From: an uncultured Hungatella sp.
GTDB lineage: Bacteria > Bacillota > Clostridia > Lachnospirales > Lachnospiraceae
Direction of reading: 5' to 3'
Assembly (NCBI GenBank): GCA_949879795.1
Contig: CATLBR010000015.1
Location: forward strand, 1 to 64,000
DNA: 64,000 bases
Part shown: positions 6,837 to 23,794 of the stretch, in pieces
How positions within the stretch are numbered: position 1 is the stretch's first letter
How the letters are laid out: each line of letters begins with the position of its first letter
The notes under the pieces: model-generated
Database searches by the model: none
What the model was told of the DNA's origin: nothing
What the model saw: the letters and a program-made list of their open reading frames with translations, nothing else
Translations under genes and position numbers: made by a program

Positions 6837-7685
6837 CTACTGGTTCCTGTCATACCGGAATCTCAAAACGCCGTGTACCACCCACCGGCTGCGGTAACCC
6901 CGTCCGGTGCAGGTGGAAAGGGTCAGCACACGGTCCTCCGCCGACGGGACGATCCCGGTATCGATCACCGAGGCCTGCATACAGTATTTCAAAAAATCCT
7001 CCTCAAGACGGTTCTCTGTGATATCCGTCCGGTAGACCAGCGAGGTTACCCCCGCCTCCTCGGCAGAAAAGATATCATATCGGGAGACACCCTGGTCGTC
7101 GGCCACATAGATGCTGGGGTGCTCCTTCCAGAAATTCTGATCCTGGTAATCCTTCAGCATGGCGAACATGGCGCCGTTGCGCATCCTGTGCCCGTAAATG
7201 ATGGTATGGAAATCCGTGAGATCCGGGCTGTTTGTCTCCTCCACGAAGATCGCACCGCCGCTGCTGGGCTCTCTCCTCCAGTCCCGTTTCAGGTAATACT
7301 GGTTGTCTGCTCCCTTTACCAGGGGACAGGACAGTTTCGTGCCGGGAATCTCGATCCAGCCTATTATATCCTGATTTACGGCCTGCAATGCCTCCAGATC
7401 CACATTCATCAGGGCGGCAGCATCCCCGAAGAGTCCTTCCTCCCCGGCCGCCTCACCCCCCAAGGACATGTCCTTTCCGGAAAATATCTCCGTGCCCGAG
7501 GGGGCGGACGAGACAGACCCGGACGAGGATCCCATATCTGACAGACCCGCGATCTGAGCCGCCTCGCTGTTTCCTGTATCGATGTTCCGGTACTGGAATT
7601 GCTGCCGAATCGCCATAGCCGTGCTGAAAAGAAATACTGCCGCCAGAAGGACTGTGAGAATCTTTGTTCCATATTTTTTGAACAT
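6837..7685 (-). CDS. Class B sortase
   Basis: A 282-residue membrane-anchored transpeptidase. A single N-terminal membrane segment (about residues 9-26) is followed by a Ser/Gly-rich linker and the sortase barrel. The catalytic residues are His166 (IIYGHRM), Cys259 (LSTCTG) and an Arg in GYRSRW. The insertion between the His strand and the next strand (about residues 172-190, FAMLKDYQDQNFWKEH) is the class B helix. Sortases cleave Pro-x-Thr-Gly-type signals and join the protein to the wall. It follows the large adhesin gene, whose C-terminus has IPKTG, and clostridial class B sortases are known to accept PxTG signals. The ATG follows AGGAGG; an intrinsic terminator separates it from the adhesin gene. 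Confidence 0.92.
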   Translation of the reverse strand: MFKKYGTKILTVLLAAVFLFSTAMAIRQQFQYRNIDTGNSEAAQIAGLSDMGSSSGSVSSAPSGTEIFSGKDMSLGGEAAGEEGLFGDAAALMNVDLEALQAVNQDIIGWIEIPGTKLSCPLVKGADNQYYLKRDWRREPSSGGAIFVEETNSPDLTDFHTIIYGHRMRNGAMFAMLKDYQDQNFWKEHPSIYVADDQGVSRYDIFSAEEAGVTSLVYRTDITENRLEEDFLKYCMQASVIDTGIVPSAEDRVLTLSTCTGRGYRSRWVVHGVLRFRYDRNQ

Positions 7686-7754: not shown

Positions 7755-10700
7755 CTACTCTGCGTTGCTCTCTTTCTTTTTCTTCAGCAGCGCCAGCAAT
7801 GCCAGCCCTGCGCCGGAGAGCAGGATCAGCAGATTCCAGACATTGGAATCGTCTCCCGTCTTCGGTATATTGGCAAGAGGCACATCAGGATCGAAAATGT
7901 TTGTCACCGGAACCTCCTCCACATTCGGAAGCCCTGCCAGAGGAACTTCAGAGCCGGGGATTTCTGTCAGCGGTACGTTCTCGTCCGGAATATTCGTCCG
8001 GGTCGGATTGCCCCCGCCTCCGCCTCCCCTTCTCGGCGGGTTCTCAGGAGTCTCTGGCGATGTCTCTGTGGGAGTCGTCTCCTCTGGGGTCGTCTCTGTA
8101 GGAGTCGTCTCTTCCGGTGTTGTCTCCGTCGGACTTGTCTCCTCTGGGGTCGTCTCCGTGGGAGTGGTCTCCTCTGGGGTTGTCGACTCCTCCGGTCTGT
8201 AAGTATTAGTAACAGTCACTACATTCCCGGTTCTGCGGACAGCCGAGTCATAGTTCTCGGGTACATTGATCTCCTCAACAGTCCAAGTATAGCTGCTGTC
8301 CAGGTTCTCCCAAGTATGGCTCCACCCATTACCTGCATTCAAAACAACAGCCGACTCATATGCCTCACCATCGCGGTACAACTGCACGCTGACGCTGGTG
8401 GGACGTACTCTCTCGCTGTCGCCTTCCCATACTTTGTTGACCGTCAGGCTTGTAGCGGGTACATAGTGGTTTGTTGCAGTAACTTGATAGGTTTCGCCCT
8501 CATTGTCTACAGTAACCTTAATGGAGTTATCCGCAGACGGGGCCTCGCCTTCCTTGAAGCTCACACCGTACCAGATCATACCGGAAACGTCTCCCTTGGT
8601 CTCTGCAACGGTATATTCGCCGTAAGGCAGTTCTTTGGTTGTGACAGTCTGGCCGTCATTTTTAACAGTCAATTCATCTACAACATCTCCTGCTGCGTTC
8701 TTCACCTGGAAAGTAAATTCTGCATTCGTCGGGATGGTGCTTCCGTCAGAGACCGTGACCGCCTTGGCAATCTGGATCTTTCCGGTTTTACGAGTATTGG
8801 TTACTTCAACAGAATTCTCTTCTGCCGAAATTTCCACTGGTGCCTCAACTTCACCGCTGGCAATGTACATCTCGGTTGAATCCTCAACCACTGTGTACGC
8901 AGTTCCTACAAGGATGTCCTCAATCGTGAAAGTCTCATCGGCCTTCAACTTGAAGTAGTAATTACCATTTTCCACATAGGATGCGGTAGTTGAACCCTCT
9001 GCTACTTCAACATCGCTGCTGCCGTCTCCCAGCTTCACAGTAAATCCAAACTCAGTCTGGGCGGGTGTACCGACCTCAGCCTCATGGACCCTCTTTGTCA
9101 CCGTCAGGTTTGTAACAGGTACATAGTAGTTTTGTGCAGTAACCTCATAGGTTTTGCCTTCCTCGTCCACTTCCACCGTAATGCTGTTGTCCGCAGACGG
9201 AGTCTGACCCTCCTCGAAACTTACACCATTCCAGAACGCGCCGGAAACATCTTTCCGAACCTCTGTAATCGTATATTGGCCGTAAGGCAGTTCGATTCTC
9301 TTCGACTCACCGTCTTTGATGCTCAGCGTGGCTACGGGATCCGCAGTCAAGTCATCCGCTTTATTCCTTACCTCGAAAGTAAACTCAACATCTTTCTGTA
9401 TACTGCCTTCATGAGAGACGCTGACAGCCTTGGTAATCTGTATTTCTCCGGTTTTGCGGGTGTTGGTTACTTCTACAGAATTCTCCCCATCTTCCTCAAT
9501 GGCCGCAGGGGTTGTGATTTCGCCGCTCGCTGTGTACTCGTCCGACTCATCCTCTTCCACCGTGTACTCAATCCCTACAGGAATATTCTCGATGGTGAAG
9601 GTTGTGTCTTTTGTCAGCATAAAATGGTAACTGCCATTTTCCTCATAAGAGGCAGCAGTGGCTCCATCCGCTATCTCAACCGGGACAGTACCATCCCCCA
9701 TCTTTACGGTAAATCCGAATTCTTCCTGGGCAGTTGTGTTATCGACTTCAACGACCCTCTTTGTCACCTTCAGATCTCTGACTGGCACATAATTGTTGTC
9801 CGCGGTAACCTCATAGGTTTTGTCTTTCTCGTCTACAGTCACCGTAATACTGTTAGACGCTGCCGGATCCTGGCCTTCCGCAAAACTCACGCCATTCCAG
9901 ATCAGATTTTCAACGGCTCCGCTGACCTCTGTAATAGTGTAATCGCCATAAGGAAGGTTTTCGACCATATCAGACGCATCTTCTCCCACTCCCACAGACA
10001 ACTCGGCTACAAGATTCTCGCCCTTCTTCACCTGGAAAGTGAATGTTGTCTCTGCTGGGATCAGGTTCTCTTCAATACCACTGACAGCTTTAACAACTCG
10101 GATTCTTCCGGTTTTGCGGGTATTGGTTACTTCTACAGAATTCTCCCCATCTTCCTCAATTGCAGTCGGGGCTGTAATTTCACCGCTCGCTGTGTACTCC
10201 TCGGATTCATCTTCTTCTACCGTATACCTAACCCCTACAGGGATGTCCTCGATGGTGAAAGTCGCGTCCTTGGTCAGCATAAAATGATAGACACCGTTTT
10301 CCTCATAGGAGGCAGCAAGGGCTCCATCCGCTATTTCCACTGGGACAGTACCATCCCCCATCTTTACGGTAAATCCGAATTCTTCCTGGGCAGTTGTGTC
10401 GTCGACTTCAACGACTCTCTTTGTCACCTTCAGATCTCTGACTGGTACATAACTGTTGTCCGCGGTAACTTCATAGATTTTGTTCTCTTGATTTACAGTC
10501 ACCGTAATGCTGTTGCCCGCAGGTGTGTTCTGGCCTTCCGCAAAGCTCACATCTTCCCAAACCAGGTTCTTAACAGTTCCGCTGACCTCTGTAATGGTAT
10601 AGTCGCCATAAGGCAGCTCTTTGGTTGTGCCAATCCCACCATTTTCCACATGAAGTTCATCCACAACCTCGTCGCCTCTCTTCACCTGGAAAGTGAATTG

Positions 10701-13700
10701 AGTCCCCTCTGGAATGAGGCTTCCGTCAACACCGCTGACAGATTTGGCGACTTGGATCTTTCCGGTTTTGCGGGTATTGGTTACTATTACGGAATTCTCC
10801 CCATTTTCCTCAATGGGAATCGGGTCTTTAACTTCGTCACTGGGTGTGTACTCGTCTGAGAGATCCTCTACCACCGTATATGTAACCCCTACAGGGATGT
10901 CCTTGATGGTGAAGGTTTCATCATTTGCCAGTTTGAAATAATAGGAACCGTTTTCCTTATAGGAGGCAACAGTGGCTCCATCCGCTATTTCCACTGGGAC
11001 AGTACCATCCCCCATCTTTACGGTAAATCCGAATTCTTCCTGGGCAGTTGTGTCGTCGACTTCAACGACCTTCTTTGTCACCTTCAGATCTCTAACTGGT
11101 ACATAATTGTTGTCAGCAGTAACTTCATAGGTTTTGTCTTTCTCGCCTACAGTCACCGTAATACTGTTAGACGCTGCCGGATTCTGGCCTTCTGCAAAAC
11201 TCACGCCATTCCAGATGAGATTTTCAACAGTTCCGCTGACCTCTGTAATGGTATAATCGCCATAAGGCAGCTTCCCGGTTACGGCAGCCCCGTCTTCTCC
11301 TACCCTGACATGCAGCCTGGCTACAAGAGCACCTTCTCTCTTCACCTCGAAGACAAATTTTTTGTTCGATGAGATCAAGTTCTCTTCAACGCCGCTGACA
11401 CTCTTGATAACCCGGATGCTTCCGGTTTTGCGGGTATTTGTTATTACTACGGAATTCTCCCCCTCAGCCGTAATGGCAGTTGGGTCTTCAACTTCGCCGC
11501 TGGGTGTGTACTGGCCTGATTCATCTTCTTTTACCGTGTATGTAATCCCTACAGGGATGTTCTTGATGGTGAAGGTTTCATCTTTTGCCAGTTTGAAATA
11601 ATAGGAGCCGTTTTCCTTATAGGAGGCAACAAGAACTCCATCCACTATTTCTACTGGGGCAGTACCATCCCCCATCTTTACGGTAAATCCGAATTTCTCC
11701 TGGGCAGTTGTGCCGTCGACTTCAACGACCTCCTTTGTCACCTTCAGATCTCTGACCGGCACATAATTGTTGTCCGCGGTAACTTTATAGGTTTTTACTT
11801 CCTCACCTATAGTCACCGTAATACTGTTAGACGCAGATGGCTTCTGGCCTTTCTCAAAACTCACACCATTCCAGACCAGATTCTCAACAGCTCCACTGAT
11901 CTCCGTAACGGTATATGTGCCATAAGGCAAATGATCGATTTCGCCAGTTTCTCCTACCCCGACATCCACTGTCTTTACAGCATTGGCACCCTCCACCTTG
12001 AAAGTAAATTTGGTGCCTGTCGGAATGAGATTCTCTCCAATACCGCTGATACTCTTGGCAACTTGGATCTTGCCAGTTTTGCGGGTGTTGGTTACTTCTA
12101 CTTCTACGGAATTCTCGCCCTTCGTAATCGTCCCGTCAGTTTCAGCTCCGTCACTCGCGATGTACTGATCATACGGATCCTCTTTCACCTTGTAAGTAGT
12201 TCCCACAGGAATATCCTTGATGGTGAAGGTCGCCCCATTCCCTAACTTAAATCGATAAATAGCATTTTTCTTATAGGAAATCTCAGCTGCCGCATCAGCT
12301 ACTGGAACATTCCCTGCACTACCGTCACCCATAGTCACAGTAAACCAGAATTCACTCTGATCGGGTGTGTTGCCAAATTCTTCGACTACCTTTTTTACTG
12401 TCAGTTTCGTGACAGGTTCATAATGGTTTGTCGCGGTAACGCTATATGTTTTGTTGTTCTCGCCTACATTTACCGTGATGCTCTTGTTGTCTTTGGATGG
12501 CTCCCCATTCCCGAAGCTCACACCATTCCAGACCAGATTCTCAACCTCTCCACTGACCTCTGTAATGGTATATGTGCCATAAGGCAGATTTCCAATTGTG
12601 GCAGTCTCGTTAATTCCGACCGGCAGATCAGCTATAACAGTTCCTTGGCTGTTTTTCACCTGGAAAGTAAACTTTTGTCCTGAGATGTTAGCAGCTGTAA
12701 CACCGCTGACAGCCTTTGTTATTTCGATCTTTCCGGTTTTGCGGGTATTGGTTACTTCTACGGAGTTAGTATCCCCCTGCTTAATCGTACCATTTTCAAC
12801 CTCACCACTCGCAGTGTACTCACCAGAGTCAGTCTCTTTCACAGTGTACTTAGTCCCAGCAGGGATATCTGTGATCTTAAAACTTTGACCTTGACTCAAG
12901 TTGAAGCTATAGATACCATCTTTCTGATACACAATAGAAGCAGCAGTAAATGTACCAACCTTCTCGTTGCTATTCCCCAGTTTTACACTAAATCCAAATT
13001 CTGTCTTCTGGGCAGTACCATATTCTGATTCTATGACAGCTTTCTTTGTTACTGTTAGACTGCCGACTTTTTTGTTGGTGAAATTGGCATCACCAGTGAG
13101 AGTAATAGTTTTGCCAGGATTCTTGACAGAAAAAACATTCCTATCACCTACCCATACTTCTACACTCGTGATCGTGTCTTTAAATTCATGTGTTGTCACA
13201 TTCACGCCACCAGTACCGGTAGTAATCTCCTTCGGGGTGTCTTTTCTCGTTGCCTTAATTATGATCTTCCGTTCCGCTTCATCATAAATGATGCCAGATT
13301 GCTTTGAACTTGGAACAACTTCCCTTAAATAAAGAGTGGTTTCTTTAGATCCCTCTTTAAGTTCATTCCCGAACAGGTCTGTGGTAGAAAGATTCGGGAA
13401 CTGAATCACACCGTTCTGATTACTGGTCACAGTGGCAATCTGCCTCTTTGAAGAATCAAGTAATAAAAACTGATATCCATTTGCAGAATCTGATCCATTA
13501 GCTGTCTTCACAAATTTGGTCGCTTTCAACGTAATATTGCTATTGAAATAATTGAAGCCCTCCTCGCCGAAGCTCAATGTACCGTTACAGCCGATACCAC
13601 CGCCATGCATCTTAGAAGTATTTCCACTAATGGTAACCACCTTATTATTGAGTTTAAAAGAATTAGCTTTGGCCCCTACATTATTACCACTACCTGCGGT

Positions 13701-16058
13701 CAGTCCGAGCACGCCTTTTACCACAATCGGGTCGCCACTTACTGTTGAAACACCGGAAGAAGAACTAGTAGCTTTCCATCCTGTCCATTTAGCATCGCCA
13801 TCATTCATGGAACGCTTACCAACTACACTGTAGCCAGCACAAAAATAATCGTTTGCGTTTGAAACTTTATCCTTTTTCCACCACCAATCATTATGGTCGA
13901 CTACGTTGCTCAATCTGGTTACACGTTTGGAATTCTCTGCTGTATTACCATAGATTGCCGCCGTCTGAGGAGAAATATTTGACATCTTGCCGTGAAGGCA
14001 GCCGGCTACTCCACCGCCCTGTCCGCTTGCGGTATTACCTGTAATCACGGCATTGAAGATTTGCATGGAACCCTTGTTCTCAATAAAGATACCACCGCCG
14101 CCAAGGTCATTGATTGTTCCAGTCGAATTACCAGTGATGCTGATATTTCCTTTAGTAGGCTTGATTAAACCTATGCCAGCACAGAAAATACCACCACCGC
14201 CGCCGTATTTCCCGGTAGCCGCACCAGAAAGATTATCATTATCAGAACTGGTTGCAGTATTATTGCTGATCGTACCACCGTAAATATTCAGAAAACCGCC
14301 TCGTGCCACTGCAATGCCGCCGCCCCAGGTTGCATTGTTGTCAGTAATCGTACCACCATACATATTGAAGGTGGCTCCAGAATCTACGAGAACAGCACCG
14401 CCTGCGGGTTCACCATTGGTTTTATCACGATCTACAATCTCAGACCACTTTACTTTGGTTCCTTTACCACCGCTGATATTTCCATTGCCCTTCAGTGTAA
14501 AAGTACCGCCTGTAACATGGAAAACACTGCCAGTCGTTCCGATATACTTAATGGTACATCCCATTAAATCAAGTTCTTCAGTTCCAGTAACAATAATCGT
14601 ACTACCAATTTCAATAGGCTTCGTTTTATCTGACCAACCCTCAATCGTCTTCTGGAGTTTCTTAACAGTATCATTAGCCGCTGCCAGATTCACTTCAGAA
14701 GTAAACAGCACCTTCCAGGTCATAGTTCCGGTTTTGGTCTTTTCTGTGGTTTCGGTTGTATCACTGTCATCAGCCTTTGACTGTCCATTAGAAGAAGACG
14801 CAACCACAGTTTCACTTCTTTCATCCTTTTCAGATGCTTTCTCTGCAGTTTCCTCAGATTCCGCATCCTTATAGGACACTTTCACTGGAGTCCCCTCAAA
14901 TTTCACGAAATGCGCATCAGCAGACACTATATCTGATGCTTTTGCATTATCCGCTTTATCTTCCTCAGAGGTTCCTCCTGCGGCTTCCGCGGTCTTCTCT
15001 TCCTTTTCGGTCTCATCCTTCACAGGCTCTGCAGCTTCTGTCTCGTCCTCAATATTCTCTTCCACAGACTCCGTAGCTTCCGTCTCATCCTCAGAACTCT
15101 CCTCTACTGACTCTGTAGCTTCTGTTTCCTTCTCAGAACTCTCCTCTACTGACTCCGTAGCTTCCATTTCCTCCTCAGAGGTCTCTTCCACAGACTCCGT
15201 AGCTTCTGTCTCGTCCTCAGAGGTCTCTTCCACAGACTCCGTAGTTTCTGCAGATTCTGTCTCGTCCTTAGAGGTCTCCTCTACTGACTCCGTAGCTTCC
15301 GTTTCCTCCTCAGAACTCTCCTCCACAGACTCCGTAGTTTCCGCAGATTCCGTCTCGTCCTTAGAAGTCTCCTCTACTGACTCTGTAGCTTCCGTTTCCT
15401 CCTCAGAACTCTCTTCCACAGACTCCATAGTTTCCGCAGATTCCGTCTCATCCTCAGAAGTCTCCTCTACTGACTCCGTTTCCTCTTCGCTAGTCTCGTC
15501 TGCAGACTCCACGGTCTCCACATCTTTTGTAGTTTCCGTTTCCTCTTCAGTCGTTTGCTCTACAGGCGCAGCAGGTTTTTCCACCTTTATATTCTCCGTG
15601 AGAACCTCATCGGACGTACCGACCTTCGTATTCTCGGGGAGAGTCTGGCCTTTCACTCCGTCCTCCTCATAGGAGTACACAACGGTGACCATCGCTTCCT
15701 TGCCGGCGGGTTCAAAAACTACCGCCTCACCGCTCTGTGGGTCAATCTCCATGACCAGAGAACCATCTTCCCATGTACCTTCGACAGACCATGTGCCGCC
15801 CGGAACAAATTCTCCCTTGGAATAATCTGTCGTCAGCATATCCACAAACCCGTCGAGAGGCAGCGGATATGCAACTCCATTCTCCGGATCAGCCTGGGGC
15901 AATGGAATGTTCAGGTCATAAGTTTCCCCGGGGCCTTCCCCGGAATCATTCGCAGGCATCTCTTCCGCAAACGCAGTCAGATTCAGCGTATTCAGGCACA
16001 ATGCCAGCGTCAGAAACACGGATAATCCGCGTCTGCTTGCTTTTTTCCATCTAGTCAT
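7755..16058 (-). CDS. Giant cell-wall-anchored adhesin with pilin-type isopeptide repeats
   Basis: The 2767-residue product has a cleavable signal peptide (MTRWKK, hydrophobic core, cut near AFAEE). Next come a Glu/Ser/Thr-rich repeat region (about residues 166-356), a right-handed beta-helix-like region rich in GGTITDNNA-type turns (500-830), seven alternating pairs of beta-sandwich modules (990-2540), one CnaB-like domain (2540-2622), a Thr/Pro/Glu stretch, and a sorting signal IPKTGDD plus membrane segment plus Lys-rich tail. Modules carry TVTK-like, VKED-like and VTNTRKTG motifs in the places where pilin domains form Lys-Asn isopeptide bonds with a catalytic acid. The start at 16058 has AAAGGAAG upstream and a c-di-GMP riboswitch ahead of it. 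In this orientation the invertible promoter points toward it. Confidence 0.9.
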   Translation of the reverse strand: MTRWKKASRRGLSVFLTLALCLNTLNLTAFAEEMPANDSGEGPGETYDLNIPLPQADPENGVAYPLPLDGFVDMLTTDYSKGEFVPGGTWSVEGTWEDGSLVMEIDPQSGEAVVFEPAGKEAMVTVVYSYEEDGVKGQTLPENTKVGTSDEVLTENIKVEKPAAPVEQTTEEETETTKDVETVESADETSEEETESVEETSEDETESAETMESVEESSEEETEATESVEETSKDETESAETTESVEESSEEETEATESVEETSKDETESAETTESVEETSEDETEATESVEETSEEEMEATESVEESSEKETEATESVEESSEDETEATESVEENIEDETEAAEPVKDETEKEEKTAEAAGGTSEEDKADNAKASDIVSADAHFVKFEGTPVKVSYKDAESEETAEKASEKDERSETVVASSSNGQSKADDSDTTETTEKTKTGTMTWKVLFTSEVNLAAANDTVKKLQKTIEGWSDKTKPIEIGSTIIVTGTEELDLMGCTIKYIGTTGSVFHVTGGTFTLKGNGNISGGKGTKVKWSEIVDRDKTNGEPAGGAVLVDSGATFNMYGGTITDNNATWGGGIAVARGGFLNIYGGTISNNTATSSDNDNLSGAATGKYGGGGGIFCAGIGLIKPTKGNISITGNSTGTINDLGGGGIFIENKGSMQIFNAVITGNTASGQGGGVAGCLHGKMSNISPQTAAIYGNTAENSKRVTRLSNVVDHNDWWWKKDKVSNANDYFCAGYSVVGKRSMNDGDAKWTGWKATSSSSGVSTVSGDPIVVKGVLGLTAGSGNNVGAKANSFKLNNKVVTISGNTSKMHGGGIGCNGTLSFGEEGFNYFNSNITLKATKFVKTANGSDSANGYQFLLLDSSKRQIATVTSNQNGVIQFPNLSTTDLFGNELKEGSKETTLYLREVVPSSKQSGIIYDEAERKIIIKATRKDTPKEITTGTGGVNVTTHEFKDTITSVEVWVGDRNVFSVKNPGKTITLTGDANFTNKKVGSLTVTKKAVIESEYGTAQKTEFGFSVKLGNSNEKVGTFTAASIVYQKDGIYSFNLSQGQSFKITDIPAGTKYTVKETDSGEYTASGEVENGTIKQGDTNSVEVTNTRKTGKIEITKAVSGVTAANISGQKFTFQVKNSQGTVIADLPVGINETATIGNLPYGTYTITEVSGEVENLVWNGVSFGNGEPSKDNKSITVNVGENNKTYSVTATNHYEPVTKLTVKKVVEEFGNTPDQSEFWFTVTMGDGSAGNVPVADAAAEISYKKNAIYRFKLGNGATFTIKDIPVGTTYKVKEDPYDQYIASDGAETDGTITKGENSVEVEVTNTRKTGKIQVAKSISGIGENLIPTGTKFTFKVEGANAVKTVDVGVGETGEIDHLPYGTYTVTEISGAVENLVWNGVSFEKGQKPSASNSITVTIGEEVKTYKVTADNNYVPVRDLKVTKEVVEVDGTTAQEKFGFTVKMGDGTAPVEIVDGVLVASYKENGSYYFKLAKDETFTIKNIPVGITYTVKEDESGQYTPSGEVEDPTAITAEGENSVVITNTRKTGSIRVIKSVSGVEENLISSNKKFVFEVKREGALVARLHVRVGEDGAAVTGKLPYGDYTITEVSGTVENLIWNGVSFAEGQNPAASNSITVTVGEKDKTYEVTADNNYVPVRDLKVTKKVVEVDDTTAQEEFGFTVKMGDGTVPVEIADGATVASYKENGSYYFKLANDETFTIKDIPVGVTYTVVEDLSDEYTPSDEVKDPIPIEENGENSVIVTNTRKTGKIQVAKSVSGVDGSLIPEGTQFTFQVKRGDEVVDELHVENGGIGTTKELPYGDYTITEVSGTVKNLVWEDVSFAEGQNTPAGNSITVTVNQENKIYEVTADNSYVPVRDLKVTKRVVEVDDTTAQEEFGFTVKMGDGTVPVEIADGALAASYEENGVYHFMLTKDATFTIEDIPVGVRYTVEEDESEEYTASGEITAPTAIEEDGENSVEVTNTRKTGRIRVVKAVSGIEENLIPAETTFTFQVKKGENLVAELSVGVGEDASDMVENLPYGDYTITEVSGAVENLIWNGVSFAEGQDPAASNSITVTVDEKDKTYEVTADNNYVPVRDLKVTKRVVEVDNTTAQEEFGFTVKMGDGTVPVEIADGATAASYEENGSYHFMLTKDTTFTIENIPVGIEYTVEEDESDEYTASGEITTPAAIEEDGENSVEVTNTRKTGEIQITKAVSVSHEGSIQKDVEFTFEVRNKADDLTADPVATLSIKDGESKRIELPYGQYTITEVRKDVSGAFWNGVSFEEGQTPSADNSITVEVDEEGKTYEVTAQNYYVPVTNLTVTKRVHEAEVGTPAQTEFGFTVKLGDGSSDVEVAEGSTTASYVENGNYYFKLKADETFTIEDILVGTAYTVVEDSTEMYIASGEVEAPVEISAEENSVEVTNTRKTGKIQIAKAVTVSDGSTIPTNAEFTFQVKNAAGDVVDELTVKNDGQTVTTKELPYGEYTVAETKGDVSGMIWYGVSFKEGEAPSADNSIKVTVDNEGETYQVTATNHYVPATSLTVNKVWEGDSERVRPTSVSVQLYRDGEAYESAVVLNAGNGWSHTWENLDSSYTWTVEEINVPENYDSAVRRTGNVVTVTNTYRPEESTTPEETTPTETTPEETSPTETTPEETTPTETTPEETTPTETSPETPENPPRRGGGGGGNPTRTNIPDENVPLTEIPGSEVPLAGLPNVEEVPVTNIFDPDVPLANIPKTGDDSNVWNLLILLSGAGLALLALLKKKKESNAE
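8440..13080 (-). repeat. Seven tandem ~660-bp repeats in the adhesin gene
   Basis: The conserved codons for VTNTRKTG recur near 8790, 9455, 10115, 10765, 11425, 12085 and 12740, giving a period of about 650-660 bp. Each unit encodes an A module (GFTVKMGDGT type) and a B module (LPYGDYTITEVSG type). The central units are the most alike at DNA level, so copy-number change by recombination is likely. Confidence 0.85.
14990..15560 (-). repeat. Glu/Ser/Thr-rich short repeats near the adhesin N-terminus
   Basis: Degenerate 14-16-residue units of the ESVEETSEDETE type repeat about a dozen times. The DNA is built from near-identical 40-60-bp blocks. The encoded stretch is acidic and probably disordered. 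Confidence 0.8.
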
Positions 16059-16094
16059 ATTATCTTCCTTTCTTTGCAAATTCACGGATGCAAA

Positions 16095-16195
16095 GTATCC
16101 GGCGGACATAGCATCCCGCTGACATACGGTCAAGCTGATACCACAGTTCCGTAGCTTTGCGTCCCTGGGTTTCCCCAGGTTTGCCAATTGCGCCT
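16095..16195 (-). promoter_or_regulatory. Cyclic di-GMP-I (GEMM) riboswitch upstream of the pilin-repeat adhesin
   Basis: On the minus strand the leader has the GEMM-I core: GGCAAACC (16178-16185), a stem capped by GAAA, and GGGACGCAAAGC, followed by a second variable stem. The aptamer ends about 35 nt ahead of the adhesin start. The element binds c-di-GMP in known cases. After the aptamer, CTTTGC and GCAAAG can pair just ahead of the ribosome binding site, so control of translation is plausible. No terminator T-run is seen. Confidence 0.85.
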
Positions 16196-16402
16196 CTTTT
16201 TCTCCGCTCCCGCCGCGCCGACACAGACGACAGCGGGGTAGTACTACGGCGGATCCCTTTCCGTCATAGCCTCCCCCCTCCCTGTTATCAGACACCTACT
16301 TGAATCAGCCGGCATCCCCGCCATCGGGTTTCCCGGCAAATCCACGCAACAAGTTTCAAACAGCTCCTCCACAGCCGCACCGGCACAGCCAAGCTGTCCG
16401 GC

Positions 16403-16427
16403 TGCAAAAAAGTGTACTTTTTCGCAA
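16403..16427 (+). repeat. Left inverted repeat of the invertible promoter (IR-L)
   Basis: 25 bp, exactly the reverse complement of 16517-16541. It is itself a dyad: 11-bp half-sites TGCAAAAAAGT and ACTTTTTCGCA flank a 2-bp core GT at 16414-16415. This is the layout of crossover sites used by small serine invertases. Confidence 0.85.
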
Positions 16428-16454
16428 AACGACTATTTATGGATCTGTATTTAA

Positions 16455-16483
16455 ATCTTATCAGAAAATGTCTCACTTGACAA
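16455..16483 (-). promoter_or_regulatory. Sigma-A promoter inside the invertible segment
   Basis: Minus strand: -35 TTGTCA (16478-16483), 17-bp spacer, -10 TAAGAT (16455-16460) with an extended TGA just before it. Transcription would start near 16448, cross IR-L and run through the riboswitch into the pilin-repeat adhesin gene. Confidence 0.75.
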
Positions 16484-16516
16484 TACCTGGTCTCCACATT
16501 TTTTCCAAAAACTAAC

Positions 16517-16541
16517 TTGCGAAAAAGTACACTTTTTTGCA
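16517..16541 (-). repeat. Right inverted repeat of the invertible promoter (IR-R)
   Basis: Exact reverse complement of 16403-16427. Its 2-bp core reads AC on the plus strand. A weak plus-strand promoter (TTTGCA at 16536-16541, 17 bp, TATAGA at 16559-16564) could overlap its outer end and give basal expression of the plus-strand adhesin. Confidence 0.85.
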
Positions 16542-16673
16542 AAATGACAGATTTGAACTATAGATAATGCCCAAAATTGGGGGAATGGAGGCCCTGCACG
16601 AAACATTTTAAGTGGATTTGCCAAGAGTACCAGACAGCCAATCTACACAACTAATCGCAAAGGAGGCGGCTTT

Positions 16674-16979
16674 ATGGTCCGGGTGATTCCGCCCTGGAGA
16701 TGCCCCACTGCCCTATGCGCCGATGGCGGTGGAAGGCGGATAAAAAGGCGTATCGGCAAACCATTGGAAACGGTGGGACGCAAAGCCAGAGGCTGGGACG
16801 CAGGATATAACATAAACAAGAATATCCGCGTGACGCTCGTTCGGTTGCATTTAGGCAAACCAGGGGAAACACTGGGACCGCAAAGCCAGAGGCTAAGGGG
16901 CGACGGGCCCTACGCTCGTTCGGCTACCGGATTCTTTGCGTCCGACAGCAAACAGATGCTTGCAAAGAAAGGAAGATGA
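16674..16979 (+). CDS. Possible 101-codon leader ORF spanning the tandem riboswitches
   Basis: An ATG 7 bp after AAAGGAGG starts a frame that runs without stop through both riboswitch aptamers. It ends in a TGA that overlaps the ATG at 16976, the first in-frame ATG of the adhesin gene. The product is Arg/Gly-rich with no recognisable domain, and its codons are simply the riboswitch sequence. It may be a chance frame. If translated, ribosomes would unfold the aptamers and couple to the adhesin start. Low confidence as a protein; listed because its ribosome binding site is unusually good. Confidence 0.25.
   Translation: MVRVIPPWRCPTALCADGGGRRIKRRIGKPLETVGRKARGWDAGYNINKNIRVTLVRLHLGKPGETLGPQSQRLRGDGPYARSATGFFASDSKQMLAKKGR
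16745..16850 (+). promoter_or_regulatory. Cyclic di-GMP-I riboswitch, first of a tandem pair
   Basis: GGCAAACC (16755-16762), a short stem with GGAAAC cap, then GGGACGCAAAGCC match the GEMM-I core. The variable second stem spans about 16787-16840. The following sequence TTCGGTTGCAT closes the element and leads straight into the second aptamer. Confidence 0.82.
16848..16945 (+). promoter_or_regulatory. Cyclic di-GMP-I riboswitch, second of a tandem pair
   Basis: GGCAAACC (16854-16861), a stem with GGAAAC cap and GGGACCGCAAAGCC form a GEMM-I core with one extra C compared with its neighbour. It closes at GGCTACCGG. Then TTCTTTGC (16932-16939) is complementary to GCAAAGAA (16962-16969), which borders the adhesin ribosome binding site; a matching arrangement occurs in the divergent leader. 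Confidence 0.82.
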
Positions 16980-16984
16980 AGTTT

Positions 16985-19900
16985 ATGAAACGAAAACGAA
17001 AAAGATTTTTGAAGCGTGGATTCGCAATGTTCCTCGTGCTTGTGACGTGCGTGGGCATGACCCCAAGCATGGCATTCGCGGCGGGGAATGATATGGCTGT
17101 TGTAGCTGGGGAAGCTGAGGATTTTGACAGTAATGAGGCTGACACGGATGTCACAGCTGACGGCCGGGATGTGGATGCGGGCGACGATGACTCTGAAGCT
17201 ATTGGTGATAATACCAGTGTCAATGGACTTTCTGAGGCAGAGATAACCGTAGACCTCAGCAATGGCGAAGAAAAATCTAATGCCGAAGAAAATGACAGCG
17301 AATCTGAAGACGCTGGTAATAACTCCAGTGTCAATGATTTTTCTGAGTCAGGGATAACCGTAACCCTCAACGATGATGAGGCAAAACCAGACAGCAACGA
17401 GAATCTTGACGGTGGCGTAAAATTAGACACCAATGAGAATCCTGATGGTGACACCAAGACAGAAAGCAATGAGAATCCTGATGGTGACACTAAGGCAGAA
17501 GGCAACGAGAATTCTGATGGTGACGTAAATTCAGAGGGTAATGAACCCCCTGATGGCGACATGGAGTCAGAAGGTAGCGAGAATCCTGATGACGACACCA
17601 AGTCAGAAGGCAGCGAGAATCCTGATGACGACACCAAGTCAGAAGGCAGCGAGAATCCTGATGACGACACCAAGTCAGAAGGCAGCGAGAATTCTGATGG
17701 TGATACAAAGTCAGAAGGCAACGAGAATTCTGATGGTGATACAAAGTCAGAAGGCAATGAAAATCCTGATGGTGAGTCAAAACCTGAAGATAAAGAAAAC
17801 CCTGATGACAACATAAAAGAGGATGAAGATGGCAATACTAGTGAGTCCGAGCATGATTCTTCTTACAGTGATACCACAAGCGAAACCAATGCAGAGACAG
17901 GAGAGACTACCACCACCACTATCTCTGGCTGGACTGATATTGATGACAAGCTCCCTAATAAGAAGACTGAAACTTCCGAGGAGACCGTCAAGGTCACAGT
18001 CACTGATAAAGATGGAGAGATCTTGGAAGAATCCGGTTCTGTGAAAGGTGAATCGACTACTACCACTACGACTACTACGACTGCCACCGAGCCTGGTACT
18101 CCAGAAGACGAGAAGGGACCAACGGTTGATGTGAAGCCTGGTGAAACCATCTCAACTACTAATCCGGGCGAGTTTGTCACTACTGATACAAACGAGGAGA
18201 CAAAAACCGAGACAAAGGTTGAGAGTCAAATTCCTTCTAAGGATATCACTGTTGAACTGAAACCTGGCGAGAATAAGACAGGTACGGCTTCACTGACTGA
18301 TCAGGAACTAGCAGATCTTTTGTTATGGAATGATAAAAATTATCCTTTGAATGAGATACTTTCAGAACCGAAAGTTGAGACCAATGAGAACGGTGAAACA
18401 GTTACAACATCTACCTCTCAGGAAGATGATAAATTTATCAAGACAGTTGTTACTGAGAAAAAGGATGGTTCTAAGGTCGAGGAGAAAACCACTGTTGAAC
18501 TCAAGGGTACTCCCAATGATAAGGGTGGAACAAACGTAACCGAATATACAATCACTACGGTTACTACCATAATCGGAGCCCCCGAGACCAGTGAAAAGGT
18601 TGAGACAGGCGATGTGACTACAGAATCCAAGACGGAAACAAGCAATCTCCCAGATGAGGAGGAGACCTATATTACCTTGCCGGATAAGCCGGAATCAAGC
18701 GAAAGCACTGCTGAGGACGGCACAAAAACCGTGGTGACAGTGGAGGAAATTAAAGATGACGATGGTCAAACCGTTGGCTATCAGACGACGACAACTGTTA
18801 CCAGCGCTGACGGCAAGCAGGTTTCCACTTCCAGTGAGTCTGTGTGGGGTAGGAAGACCACCGTTGTCACCTCTTATCAAAAGGACATTACTACAACTAC
18901 CAGTACGGGCATAAACAAGGTTGTTACCACCACTACCACACTCATTACTCAGGGTACCACTGTGAGTAACCACAAGATTACTGCCACTGACCGAGAGATT
19001 ACAGCATCTATGAGTAAGGTGACTGCTGGTGATGATAACGGCAAGGTCGTTATGACTCCATCTGTGACACCTGATGTGAAAGAACCTGCGTCCGGTAAAG
19101 TCGATACAACAACAGACCTGTATCACCGGCCTGATGGTACATTTACCGCAACTCCAACTGATAGGAAAGACTCAAATGGAAACACAATCTATGCAGCTAC
19201 AGTTACACTTAAGGATAATAAAAAGATTGAAGTAGAAGTCGCCAAAGATCAACAGGGTAACTGGATCCCTGTTAATAATGATTTTGAGTGGTTTGGAGAG
19301 TATGGTCTTGAAAGTGCTATTCGCGTCAAAGCGCCAGGCAGTAGTGGTAACCCAGCTTACACTTGGCAGCCTCATCAGTTTGTTCTGAAGAATAAAAATG
19401 GTGAGAAGTTCTATGTATACTGCGCCGATTTTGAAGTTAGCCCGTCTAACGGTGCAGCATATACTATGACCAATATTGAGGATGCAGAATATTATGGAAA
19501 GGATGCTGCAGAACATATTCGTTATATCGCTGAAAACGGTTATTGGGGCACTACTTCAGGTACTGGAAGTTTAGCGGAATTAAAAAGCTGGCTGAGTAAA
19601 CAATCAAATACCGGCCTTACCTCAGATCAAATTAATCGTTTGACTGCAGGCCAGGCACTGACTGCAACTCAAGCAGCTATTTGGCACTTTGGAAACAGCG
19701 GTGACCAAAAAGTGAATGGCGATATCGTTGGTCAGTACTACAATGGTGGCAATAGTTTCAGTCAAATTGGTGACACTGCTGATGATAGAATTTTGACTCA
19801 AAAACTTTATGAGTTTCTGATTAAAGGACAGACAGAAGCTCCAGATGAGACAGTTTTTATCACAGAGGACGTTTTTGCTACCAGCTCTACCATCACTATA

Positions 19901-21184
19901 GGCGAGAAAATCACTGAAACGGACGAAAATGGTGAGACCGTATTCAAAATGACCGAAGATAATAAAGCCATTTATAAAGCAGATGTTTCTTTCGGTATGT
20001 CTGTAGTACCTAGCAAGAATGGTGATTTGATCGTACAGGTATTTCTTGATGGAAATGTAATTGAGACCAAGCGTTTGGCTGGCGAGAATAAAGAAGGTCA
20101 GAATTATGGTAAAATCAGTCCAGACGAAAATGGTAACTATACTATTTCCGGTCTGGAATTGCCAAACGGTTCCAGGATTACCCTTAATTTGTCTGGTACT
20201 CAGGAGTTGGCAAAAGGTATATATTTGTATACCTGCAAGACAGGAATGACAGGTTCCCAAACATTCGTTGGTATGGGTGAAGGTGAACGCGATGTTGACC
20301 TGTCTGTAGATATTGATTTTAATGTCAAAGAATCTGAGGCAACAATTAGCAAGACCGAGTCCGGTAATACCCAGGAAAAAACTGATACTGAGATCCAGAC
20401 TCGGAAGGATGAGATCACCCAAACACAGGTGTCAGCAGAAATTACTGTCACTACTACTACCACTGAGAAAGATCATACCGAGTGGGAAAATAACTGGAAC
20501 AACAATAAGCGCCCAGAATCAACAGAAGGTGATGATGATGCCGACGCGGATGCCGACGCGGATGCTGACGCGGATGCGGATGCCGACGCGGATGCTGACG
20601 CGGACGCGGATGCGGATGCCGACGCGGATGCGGATGCTGACGCGGACGCGGATGCGGATGCCGACGCGGATGCGGATGCCGACGCGGACGCGGATGCGGA
20701 TGCCGACGCGGATGCGGATGCCGACGCGGATGCTGACGCGGACGCGGATGCGGATGCCGACGCGGATGCTGACGCGGACGCGGATGCTGACGCGGATGCG
20801 GATGCCGACGCGGACGCGGATGCGGATGCCGACGCGGACGCGGATGCGGATGCCGACGCGGACGCGGACGCGGATGCGGATACCGATGACGACACTAACA
20901 TCCCTGGCGGAAATGTCCCCAGTGGCGGTACTGTAACAAGAAGAAGGACGAATATCCCAAGTGAGAATGTACCTTTGACAAGTATCCCTAATGAAGAAGT
21001 GCCTCTGGCAAATATTCCTGATGAGGACGTTCCCTTGGCGAACATTCCTGATGAGGACGTTCCATTAGCCAGTCTGCCCAAGACCGGGCAGGCATCTGCC
21101 ATGTGGCATGCGATAGCTGCTTTGTCCACCATGAGTTTGGCATGGCTGCTCATACTTGAAAAAAAGAAACGCCAGGATTCCTAA
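16985..21184 (+). CDS. Cell-wall-anchored thioester-domain adhesin with Asp-Ala stalk
   Basis: A 1399-residue surface protein. It has a signal peptide (cut near MAFAAG), an acidic region with about eleven 12-residue DGDTKSEGNENP-type repeats, long Thr/Glu-rich stretches, and a thioester (TQXA-type) domain. The likely thioester pair is Cys813 in VYCADFE and Gln896 in TATQAAIWHF. A beta-rich domain follows, then 57 Asp-Ala dipeptides, VPLANIP-type pre-anchor repeats, LPKTG, a membrane helix and a KKKR tail. Thioester domains bond covalently to host amines in Gram-positive adhesins. ATG 16985 has the better spacing from AAAGGA; ATG 16976 is an alternative that overlaps the leader ORF stop. Tandem riboswitches precede it, and in the sequenced orientation the invertible promoter points away. 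Confidence 0.9.
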   Translation: MKRKRKRFLKRGFAMFLVLVTCVGMTPSMAFAAGNDMAVVAGEAEDFDSNEADTDVTADGRDVDAGDDDSEAIGDNTSVNGLSEAEITVDLSNGEEKSNAEENDSESEDAGNNSSVNDFSESGITVTLNDDEAKPDSNENLDGGVKLDTNENPDGDTKTESNENPDGDTKAEGNENSDGDVNSEGNEPPDGDMESEGSENPDDDTKSEGSENPDDDTKSEGSENPDDDTKSEGSENSDGDTKSEGNENSDGDTKSEGNENPDGESKPEDKENPDDNIKEDEDGNTSESEHDSSYSDTTSETNAETGETTTTTISGWTDIDDKLPNKKTETSEETVKVTVTDKDGEILEESGSVKGESTTTTTTTTTATEPGTPEDEKGPTVDVKPGETISTTNPGEFVTTDTNEETKTETKVESQIPSKDITVELKPGENKTGTASLTDQELADLLLWNDKNYPLNEILSEPKVETNENGETVTTSTSQEDDKFIKTVVTEKKDGSKVEEKTTVELKGTPNDKGGTNVTEYTITTVTTIIGAPETSEKVETGDVTTESKTETSNLPDEEETYITLPDKPESSESTAEDGTKTVVTVEEIKDDDGQTVGYQTTTTVTSADGKQVSTSSESVWGRKTTVVTSYQKDITTTTSTGINKVVTTTTTLITQGTTVSNHKITATDREITASMSKVTAGDDNGKVVMTPSVTPDVKEPASGKVDTTTDLYHRPDGTFTATPTDRKDSNGNTIYAATVTLKDNKKIEVEVAKDQQGNWIPVNNDFEWFGEYGLESAIRVKAPGSSGNPAYTWQPHQFVLKNKNGEKFYVYCADFEVSPSNGAAYTMTNIEDAEYYGKDAAEHIRYIAENGYWGTTSGTGSLAELKSWLSKQSNTGLTSDQINRLTAGQALTATQAAIWHFGNSGDQKVNGDIVGQYYNGGNSFSQIGDTADDRILTQKLYEFLIKGQTEAPDETVFITEDVFATSSTITIGEKITETDENGETVFKMTEDNKAIYKADVSFGMSVVPSKNGDLIVQVFLDGNVIETKRLAGENKEGQNYGKISPDENGNYTISGLELPNGSRITLNLSGTQELAKGIYLYTCKTGMTGSQTFVGMGEGERDVDLSVDIDFNVKESEATISKTESGNTQEKTDTEIQTRKDEITQTQVSAEITVTTTTTEKDHTEWENNWNNNKRPESTEGDDDADADADADADADADADADADADADADADADADADADADADADADADADADADADADADADADADADADADADADADADADADADADADADADADADADADADADADADADADADTDDDTNIPGGNVPSGGTVTRRRTNIPSENVPLTSIPNEEVPLANIPDEDVPLANIPDEDVPLASLPKTGQASAMWHAIAALSTMSLAWLLILEKKKRQDS
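17390..17815 (+). repeat. 36-bp tandem repeats (12-residue acidic units)
   Basis: About eleven in-frame copies encode NPDGDTKSEGNE-like units; copies at 17575-17690 are nearly identical. The encoded region is highly acidic and lacks hydrophobic residues, as in a disordered wall-spanning spacer. Confidence 0.85.
20537..20878 (+). repeat. 57 consecutive Asp-Ala codon pairs
   Basis: 342 bp built only from GAT/GAC and GCG/GCC/GCT codons encode (Asp-Ala)57. Higher-order blocks such as GATGCCGACGCG recur, so slippage or recombination can change length in 6-bp steps without frameshift. It resembles the Ser-Asp stalks of staphylococcal Clf/Sdr adhesins in position and role but uses Asp-Ala. Confidence 0.92.
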
Positions 21185-21283: not shown

Positions 21284-23062
21284 ATGAAGAGGAAACATTT
21301 CTTCCGTCGGGCGGCAATTTTGCTGCTGGCGGTTGTCGCGATGGCAGTTGTGGCTGCTGCTATGATCCTTTTCGGTCAAAGTGACAAAGACACGACTCTT
21401 TTTCGTCAGAAAGCCGACCTGCTCCGGCAGTCCGTCCTTACGGACTGGGTTGAACTGGAGGTAGGCGTCAATCCCGCTGGAAGTGCGGGACAAGTGGTTT
21501 TCCTCTCTGTCTGTGACGGAAACCAACGCGCCAGCGTCTACAGCGGCACAGGTGAAAACCTGGCCATAGCATGGGACACAGCCGTGGCTCACGCAGATAA
21601 AGCCTTGAAAAAAAGCGGACTCCAGCCAAAATGGGTTAAAGCTGATGTAGTTTACCTTTCTGAAGTTGTCCCGATGTCTGAACTGAAGAGGGGGGTTGTC
21701 GCCTCCCGCCAGCAGTTCTTCCGCTACGGGGTGGCATTTGACCAGAATTTTCAGACTGCCTTGCTGGAGGCAGAGCTCAACGGCGCCCAGATCTACGACT
21801 ATGATAACGGCGGTGTCAGCCTGGACGCGCTGAGATCCTATCTGAAAAAGGCGAAACGCAGGCCCCTCTCCGCACTGCCGGACCAGTGCACCCTGTTCCA
21901 GTGCATCGGCTGGCTGTGTGACGAGAACAGCGACGTCTATGAGCTCAATGCGGGAGGACTGGATTACGGGCGGAGACAGGTGGAGGTTCTGGACGCAGAC
22001 TATGTAAGAGAATTGATCCTGAACGGTTCTGCTTTTCTGAAAGATCAAGTCAGGGAGGACGGCTCTTTTATCTATGGGATCTACCCCTGCTCTGACCAGG
22101 AGATCGAGGGCTACAACATCGTACGCCACGCCAGCACCATCTGGTCTCTCATCTGCCGCTACCGCCTTGTGCCCGATGAGGAGCTGGCGGAAAAGATTGA
22201 CCAGACCATCGGCTACATGCTGAGCCAGATAGTCTATGACGGCGGGGGGAGGGCTTATCTCTATGAGGAGACGGCCGACGAGATCAAGCTGGGAGGCTGC
22301 GGAATCGCGGTGGTCGCCCTGACGGAGTACATGGACGCGTTCCAAAACCGCAGGTACGAGGATGTCTGCACGGCGCTGGGAAATGGGATACTCACCATGA
22401 TGGATCAGGAGAAAGGTACCTATTACCATGTGCTCAAAGGCGATTTCACCCGGAAGAAAGAGTTCCGCACGGTCTACTATGACGGGGAGGCCACGTTTGC
22501 CCTCTGCAGGCTGTACGGCCTCACAGGCGATCAGGTGTGGCTGGATGCCGCCGAGAGCGCGGTGGCACATTTCATAGAAGCAGATTACACACAGTACAAG
22601 GACCACTGGGTGGCCTACAGCATGAACGAGATCACCAAGTACGTCACCGACCGGCCGGACTACTATGTGTTTGCCCTGCAGAACGCTCAGAAGAATTTGA
22701 AAACCATCTCTGAGCGGGACACTACCTACCACACTTACCTGGAACTGCTCATGTCCACCTTTGAGATCTACGACCGGATGGTCCAGAGCGGCGCTTCAAT
22801 CAGCGGTTTTGATCTGTGGCCCTTCCTGGGAGCCATCTATACCAGGGCGAACCGGCAGCTGAACGGGTATTTCTATCCCGAGTACGCCATGTACATGGAA
22901 AATCCCGGCCGTATCCTGGACACCTTCATGGTGCGGCATGACAGCTACCGTGTCCGCATCGACGATGTACAGCACAATATCGGGGGATACTATCTGTACT
23001 GTGTCAACTACGACAAGCTGGTACAGTACGGAATGCTGCTCTGCACCGACATCTTTAATTAA
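21284..23062 (+). CDS. Membrane-anchored alpha-helical toroid-like protein, function unknown
   Basis: A 593-residue protein with an N-terminal membrane anchor (about residues 10-32, positively charged before it), so the bulk is outside the cell. After about 200 residues of mixed fold, repeated helical hairpins with aromatic and acidic residues (for example DGSFIYGIYP, YYDGEATFALCRLYGLTGD) resemble alpha/alpha-toroid proteins such as six-hairpin glycosidases. No catalytic pair can be assigned. The start at 21284 follows GGAGGAG; the frame extends upstream through the terminator but has no better signal. It follows the adhesin gene closely, so a role in surface glycan or adhesin maturation is possible but is only inferred. 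Confidence 0.65.
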   Translation: MKRKHFFRRAAILLLAVVAMAVVAAAMILFGQSDKDTTLFRQKADLLRQSVLTDWVELEVGVNPAGSAGQVVFLSVCDGNQRASVYSGTGENLAIAWDTAVAHADKALKKSGLQPKWVKADVVYLSEVVPMSELKRGVVASRQQFFRYGVAFDQNFQTALLEAELNGAQIYDYDNGGVSLDALRSYLKKAKRRPLSALPDQCTLFQCIGWLCDENSDVYELNAGGLDYGRRQVEVLDADYVRELILNGSAFLKDQVREDGSFIYGIYPCSDQEIEGYNIVRHASTIWSLICRYRLVPDEELAEKIDQTIGYMLSQIVYDGGGRAYLYEETADEIKLGGCGIAVVALTEYMDAFQNRRYEDVCTALGNGILTMMDQEKGTYYHVLKGDFTRKKEFRTVYYDGEATFALCRLYGLTGDQVWLDAAESAVAHFIEADYTQYKDHWVAYSMNEITKYVTDRPDYYVFALQNAQKNLKTISERDTTYHTYLELLMSTFEIYDRMVQSGASISGFDLWPFLGAIYTRANRQLNGYFYPEYAMYMENPGRILDTFMVRHDSYRVRIDDVQHNIGGYYLYCVNYDKLVQYGMLLCTDIFN

Positions 23063-23136: not shown

Positions 23137-23167
23137 CCCTTATGATAAGATATAAATCAAACACTGA

Positions 23168-23794
<627 letters not shown>

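Follow-up and report, generated by a model that had tools for sequence, protein, structure and literature searches.

The window analysed here, a stretch of 64,000 nucleotides, opens a contig of 80.9 kb that belongs to a draft genome of 2.63 Mb (44 contigs, 65% complete). Two divergent genes, A and B, flank a short element bounded by inverted repeats (Table 1). A sequence-only reading of this DNA had described both as adhesin genes, and their products do look sortase-anchored: they end in the same NCBIfam doubled-motif LPXTG anchor, NF033073 (60.1 and 68.5 bits against a cut-off of 48). The anchor, together with the TED and Cna_B domains, marks them as putative sortase-anchored adhesins. Gene B also contains a very long Asp-Ala dipeptide run at about positions 20500-20910, which might vary in length by slippage. 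The protein encoded between gene B and the recombinase gene may or may not be part of the system.

Table 1. Positions of genes, candidate recombination sites and predicted regulatory features around the element
Feature	Position	Strand	Description
Class B sortase gene, downstream of gene A	6837..7685	-	Sortase of class B
Gene A	7755..16058	-	2767 aa; DUF7601/DUF5979/SpaA/Cna_B repeats; LPXTG-type anchor IPKTG
c-di-GMP-I aptamer of gene A	16107..16195	-	RF01051, 49.4 bits, gathering threshold 35
Left recombination site	16402..16427	+	26-bp dyad, core GT at 16414-16415; second-best profile score, 33.3 bits
Invertible spacer	16428..16516	.	89 bp; sites 115 bp apart centre to centre
Extended -10 promoter, faces gene A	16455..16483	-	Consensus match
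Right recombination site	16517..16542	-	26-bp dyad, core at 16529-16530 (AC on +); best profile score, 35.9 bits
Tandem aptamer 1 of gene B, c-di-GMP-I	16745..16852	+	47.4 bits, source-genome search
Tandem aptamer 2 of gene B, c-di-GMP-I	16844..16931	+	56 bits
Gene B	16976..21184	+	1402 aa; thioester (TED) domain; long acidic and DA repeats; LPXTG anchor LPKTG
Protein between gene B and recombinase	21284..23062	+	No Pfam or NCBIfam match at E 0.001
Small serine recombinase, candidate invertase	23183..23794	+	About 203 aa; PF00239; likely ATT start (comparison with relatives)

The repeats are as first described, perfect over 25 bp and surrounding 89 bp, the left arm (16403-16427) being the exact reverse complement of 16517-16541. 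Under a simple composition model, about 3e-8 perfect repeats of this kind with a spacer below 500 bp are expected in the window by chance. Taken as 26-mers, the arms agree at 25 of 26 positions, and 10 of 12 (left) and 11 of 12 (right) dyad positions pair. The earlier description of 11-bp half-sites around a 2-bp GT/AC core stands for the dyad and the core; the half-site is nearer 12 bp. Since the core reads GT on the left and AC on the plus strand on the right, the two cores are inverted relative to each other. The repeats thus share the properties of Hin/Gin-type sites, i.e. dyads of about 26 bp, an asymmetric 2-bp core and inverted orientation. The anatomy of an inverton, inverted repeats flanking a promoter beside a gene, is present as well, with the promoter recognized by consensus only.

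This promoter, TTGTCA-17-TAAGAT with a TG before the -10 hexamer, faces the minus-strand adhesin gene as had been proposed. By arithmetic, inversion would place it at about 16461-16489 on the plus strand, facing gene B; the strongest plus-strand match now in the spacer is weaker (7 vs 10.5 on an ad hoc promoter score). The further proposal that it is the sole strong promoter of the divergent region agrees with a consensus scan of 16050-16985 (936 bp), where it is the only promoter-like match, though with 0.7 expected by chance the match alone is not above chance. Promoters of other types, missed by such a scan, could also be present in the region. No terminator-like site was found within the same coordinates.

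A consensus search of the source genome allowing up to three mismatches returns only the two window arms (a reversed-pattern control returns 0), with no further copies of the exact repeat at the same tolerance. Among 299 family genomes the exact repeat (up to three mismatches) is present in one, the source genome; elsewhere the arms are thus not preserved base for base. A strict dyad search, with thresholds of 23/26 arm matches and 9/12 dyad pairs in each arm, finds only the window (with its sub-loci), L097 and L103 among 146 loci plus the window, and nothing in 1.6 million simulated bases. No second copy of the intergenic region that covers the spacer occurs in the 26 genus genomes, own included; four of the 25 others gave matches, all short (33-122 bases) and mostly to aptamer or leader stretches. 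A lone dyad, GTACCAAAACGTATACATTTTGGCAC, is present at G000:C15:78413-78438 (L128:16414); it has no partner among the best profile matches of that stretch and resembles the repeats of L165.

Three features are absent from the sequence-only reading: three riboswitch aptamers, a similarity of the two leaders and a serine recombinase gene. Control does not rest with the promoter by itself, since c-di-GMP-I aptamers separate it from each of the two genes. All three pass the Rfam gathering threshold (47.4-56 bits vs 35) and are predicted to bind the ligand; they are the only c-di-GMP-I aptamers found in the draft source genome. The one at 16745-16852 is absent from the whole-window scan, and another scan gave a partial sub-threshold match to a related family. 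From the element to the first aptamer the distance is about 207 bp on side A and about 203 bp on side B. The A and B leaders are alike (best local score 48 vs a maximum of 27 in 200 shuffles), the alignment being largely aptamer; the pre-aptamer parts show a more modest likeness (29 vs a maximum of 25 in 500 shuffles). An 18-base stretch, TTGCAAAGAAAGGAAGAT, which includes the Shine-Dalgarno sequence, is identical in both. The layout of A and B would be accounted for if one leader had been duplicated in inverted orientation. In leader folding, a conserved CTTTGC can pair with the aptamer or with a GCAAAG just before the Shine-Dalgarno sequence, and the predicted accessibility of that GCAAAG changed little; c-di-GMP may either raise or lower output.

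These leaders bear on how cleanly an inversion would separate the two genes. Other promoters or read-through might keep one adhesin on, in which case the element would invert but would tune expression rather than select, with no clean either/or. Consensus scans do overlook promoters of other types, and the present one carries little weight as evidence; in addition, the available portion of one study describes the Clostridium difficile cmrRST promoter upstream of the riboswitch as working in either switch orientation (PMC8844915). Tuning is a possibility to be kept in mind, but we consider it the less probable course, as a single promoter-like site is present in the region and the similar leaders stand about equally far from the element. 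We infer strict mutual exclusivity of adhesins A and B at lower confidence than the inversion mechanism.

The candidate enzyme is encoded 6.6 kb from the repeats. It is identified as a small serine recombinase by PF00239 matches (2.5e-24 and 2.8e-29) and an in-frame YIRVS motif, the serine of which is the catalytic residue. The sequence-only reading had likened the repeats to the sites of the small serine invertases Hin, Gin and Cin, and it is fair to say that the enzyme would work like Hin. Its identity as a Hin-type enzyme is not supported, because Sin and gamma-delta resolvase are nearer to it than the solved full-length invertases. Sin (2r0q, the record title of which is Tn552 DNA-invertase bin3) scores 110 bits, gamma-delta resolvase 65, and two DNA-invertase chains, which we take to be Gin, 59-60; no full-length Hin was among the solved structures matched. 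Closest sequence, in a comparison made with proteins of solved structure only, does not place the enzyme in the Hin/Gin subfamily. The Mpi-family invertase model NF009949 gives 45.4 bits against a cut-off of 272.

The recombinase frame offers no ATG, GTG or TTG as a start. An in-frame ATT soon after a Shine-Dalgarno sequence (window 23165-23200) is common to close relatives. Among 49 relatives listed, L047, L053, L057 and L061 likewise lack a standard start codon within the 48 nucleotides shown and share the ATT; L048 has the ATT, with an ATG only before its Shine-Dalgarno sequence, and the L135 recombinase has ATC instead. A rare start codon may keep the recombinase scarce. One can also imagine a once-active switch that is now locked, its recombinase poorly made, displaced or inactive, and the lack of an ATG, GTG or TTG start and the distance from the sites could be taken in this sense. 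The reading frame, however, is intact, the ATT is not peculiar to this copy, and the arms agree at 25/26 positions, compared with 14-24 in relatives' pairs scoring at least 24; a locked switch is therefore unlikely.

Of 200 family genomes, counted with the source genome, 67 carry a relative of the recombinase at E <= 1e-20. Stretches that encode relatives number 327 in named genomes; among the best 80 of these 327, which were retained, the top relatives (up to 87% identity) come mostly from records titled Clostridia, Oscillibacter or Oscillospiraceae. Loci L047-L146, 100 in all with near-duplicates and two own-genome stretches included, were examined for sites. Inverted dyad pairs with a TGTA core are found at 33 of the 100, vs 0 of 500 simulated loci. 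Where more than 300 bp follow the recombinase (86 loci), a site pair stands directly behind its stop codon in 53 cases (pair score of at least 24, an ad hoc threshold, within 600 bp); none of 351 control stretches taken from these loci has one. The remaining 33, which lack such a pair by this test, include some of the closest relatives (L047, L049, L050, L060, L061). Where relatives have a pair, the recombinase is adjacent to its sites, unlike the arrangement in the window.

A site profile was built from 53 relative elements, excluding the window; of the 127,950 positions scored with it, the two window arms take the top two ranks. The next match, other-strand matches at the same places aside, scores 13.2 bits. 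It should be noted that the weight of the core in the profile is partly by construction, because the TGTA core was a selection criterion of the relaxed search. Centre-to-centre spacing is helically phased in 54 elements, recurring about every 10.5 bp (R 0.78, against a highest null value of 0.49 among 20,000 jitters), a statistic that is descriptive since the relatives are not independent. The window spacing falls within about 1 bp of the relatives' helical phase. Of 55 relative elements, 42 have their stronger promoter match pointing towards the recombinase and five towards the next gene; eight are ambiguous.

The source genome encodes a second recombinase on another contig, C18. It is 68% identical to the window copy and, with no dyad pair of the window kind nearby, may likewise act at a distance from its gene, which raises the question of whether this or yet another enzyme does the inverting. 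We regard this as improbable. The window copy and the sites are on the same contig, and its near relatives in L051, L063, L068 and L080 (84-85% identical) adjoin matching sites. A 17-bp inverted repeat with a 56-bp spacer close to the C18 copy (L127:8618-8707) could be that enzyme's own target.

Direct signs of inversion are found in two relatives from different draft genomes. The flanks of L072 and L075 are collinear and closely matching, and the spacer is reverse-complemented between them (score 0.97 inverted vs -0.07 direct). Inner half-sites are exchanged and outer half-sites stay, except for one base in the left outer half, which places the crossover within the shared GTGTACA. As the two loci hold the element in opposite orientations, inversion occurs in this recombinase family. 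L072/L075 is the only inverted pair at that score level among the relatives; L070 vs L072 is also inverted, at a weaker score of 0.43, and similar pairs in the same orientation are L067/L078, L071/L077, L131/L132 and some weaker ones. The central claim of the sequence-only reading, an invertible promoter, is thus backed by the enzyme gene in the window, the sites beside relatives, the site profile and this inverted pair. The alternative that the repeats are operators of a dimeric regulator common to both genes, with no inversion at all, has in its favour the dyad form of each repeat, which operators share. We give it very little credence: in relatives, dyads of the same kind adjoin serine recombinases and form inverted pairs in helical phase, and between two relatives the element is visibly inverted.

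The gene beside the L072 element encodes an Eco57I-type methylase, and the L072/L075 switch would therefore turn a restriction-modification gene on and off. Ten of 50 first ORFs after relatives' elements were scanned; these also include a cytosine methylase, MmeI-type domains, a sugar transferase, an MBOAT protein and an LRR/SLH surface protein. The recombinase family precedes restriction-modification methylase genes in L056, L067, L070, L072, L075, L078, L082 and L138, the Eco57I domain being confirmed for L067 and L072 only and the rest assigned by a similar protein start. This association suggests a possible inversion-controlled defence.

In the genus, c-di-GMP-I riboswitches are found in six of 26 genomes (own included), with 20 matches at nine loci; up to 111 candidates were scored per genome. 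Seven of the nine loci have at least two aptamers and precede a large surface-type gene. One of them, L167, was excluded from the inverted-repeat test as its contig starts 410 bp upstream, and an inverted repeat lies upstream at all six testable multi-aptamer loci; the recombinases identified there are of the serine or tyrosine type. Five were found by a common test, a perfect repeat of at least 13 bp within 1.5 kb (the window, G301:C116, G303:C13, G301:C41 and G303:C1), and the sixth, G303:C8, by a dyad scan. The two single-aptamer loci have no inverted repeat by either method. With the common test, 30 other riboswitch loci of the family gave 0/30 upstream and 1/30 downstream; these controls were the best-scoring loci, unselected for surface genes or multiple aptamers, and contig ends or N runs cut some of them short.

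The locus at G303:C8 (L168) shows, in order, a serine recombinase 70% identical to that of the window, the element, a small ORF, two aptamers and an anchored protein. L088, from a Butyricicoccus record, shares this order, though the support is weaker: its right-hand site, a weak one, did not pass the pair-score test, one aptamer is above the Rfam threshold and the other is found by pattern only, and the contig ends inside the surface-type gene. In L166 and L189 a tyrosine recombinase precedes the repeat; the L189 protein ends in LPKMG, not LPXTG. A crude riboswitch pattern picked out only L088 and L109 among the 100 recombinase loci, and Rfam bore out L088 only; being this rare, riboswitch coupling is not general to the recombinase family. 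The divergent layout is found in the window only and in none of the other coupled genus loci or L088. By eye, no head-to-head riboswitch pair within 1.5 kb was seen among the matches listed (134 of 396 genomes matched, own included).

Several further observations concern these loci. At L169:8637-9299 (G303:C13) one element is assembled in both orientations around an N, with a TT core instead of GT, as if the sample had contained reads of both forms. A related ORF of about 160 aa lies between element and riboswitches at L088:10787-11278, L168:8943-9413, L166:9133-9594 and L189:9339-9773; the L088 copy has no Pfam match, and the window has no match to the ORF. At L222:5300-6700 (G133:C28) a recombinase of the same family is followed by a GTGTAC-type sequence, a masked stretch and a c-di-GMP-I riboswitch.

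The anatomy of the element, the enzyme gene, the family-wide linkage of enzyme and site, one inverted pair in relatives, the aptamers and the similar leaders are established. With considerable confidence, we regard 16402-16542 as an invertible promoter and the serine recombinase encoded at about 23183-23794 as the most likely agent. The recombinase would bind both dyads, cut at the 2-bp cores and flip the 89-bp spacer. The copy in the source genome would presumably flip in this way too, as judged from assembled sequence rather than reads. In the assembled orientation the promoter would drive gene A and in the inverted orientation gene B, and the two genes would be expressed alternately. Transcripts from the invertible promoter would all cross aptamers, one for A and two for B, since the aptamers lie downstream of it. 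The best reading overall is an either/or inverton in series with c-di-GMP riboswitches: the orientation of the DNA would select the adhesin and the c-di-GMP level would set whether, and how much of it, is made, i.e. a selector and a sensor in series.

We lean, with some reserve, towards a broader interpretation as a two-layer selector. One invertible promoter would serve two divergent adhesins with similar leaders, random inversion picking the adhesin and c-di-GMP aptamers in series gating its making; that both serine and tyrosine recombinase systems lie upstream of such riboswitch-controlled surface genes in the genus would then imply that selection has repeatedly favoured linking a random switch to c-di-GMP. 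If this is correct, two modes of surface variation, random DNA inversion and second-messenger sensing, are joined in one short region, and one inversion exchanges two adhesins with no off state. The exact layout, divergent with an invertible promoter and riboswitches, is known from one genome. Of wider use is the tie between a widespread clostridial serine recombinase family and a recognizable site, which makes its invertible promoters searchable by profile, with no reads needed. In relatives, such promoters also precede genes of restriction-modification and surface-polysaccharide type.

A serine-recombinase inverton is a known kind of system; the arrangement described here is new. No description of an invertible promoter between two riboswitch-controlled divergent adhesins was found in the literature covered (titles and abstract openings, with subscription papers thinly covered). 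Hin, Gin and Cin are small serine recombinases that act on inverted dyad sites, each about 26 bp long around a 2-bp core, and give alternate expression. The window has a small serine recombinase and inverted dyads of like length, also with a 2-bp core; it differs in that its enzyme scores nearest to Sin and the segment is only 115 bp from centre to centre. The invertons that Jiang and colleagues reportedly found in 2019 with PhaseFinder are inverted repeats around promoters in gut bacteria, beside surface genes. The window likewise has a promoter enclosed by inverted repeats, again in a gut bacterium and with surface genes adjoining, but here the enzyme family is tied to its site and there is a gene on each side of the promoter. 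The divergent fimbrial genes of Haemophilus influenzae are said to vary through a combined promoter region by change of repeat number and not by inversion; the likeness is in phase variation of two divergent surface genes from a common region.

The nearest parallel in regulation is provided by the cmr and flagellar switches of C. difficile, for which the available portion of one study describes site-specific inversion and a c-di-GMP riboswitch at one locus (PMC8844915). In cmrRST and flgB, as described there, the riboswitch is upstream of the switch (PMC8844915). This arrangement is not the one present at the window, where, unlike in C. difficile, the aptamers (16107-16195 and 16745-16931) lie outside the element and downstream of the promoter, on both sides. 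The C. difficile switches use the RecV recombinase and control one operon, as opposed to the serine recombinase and two genes of the window.
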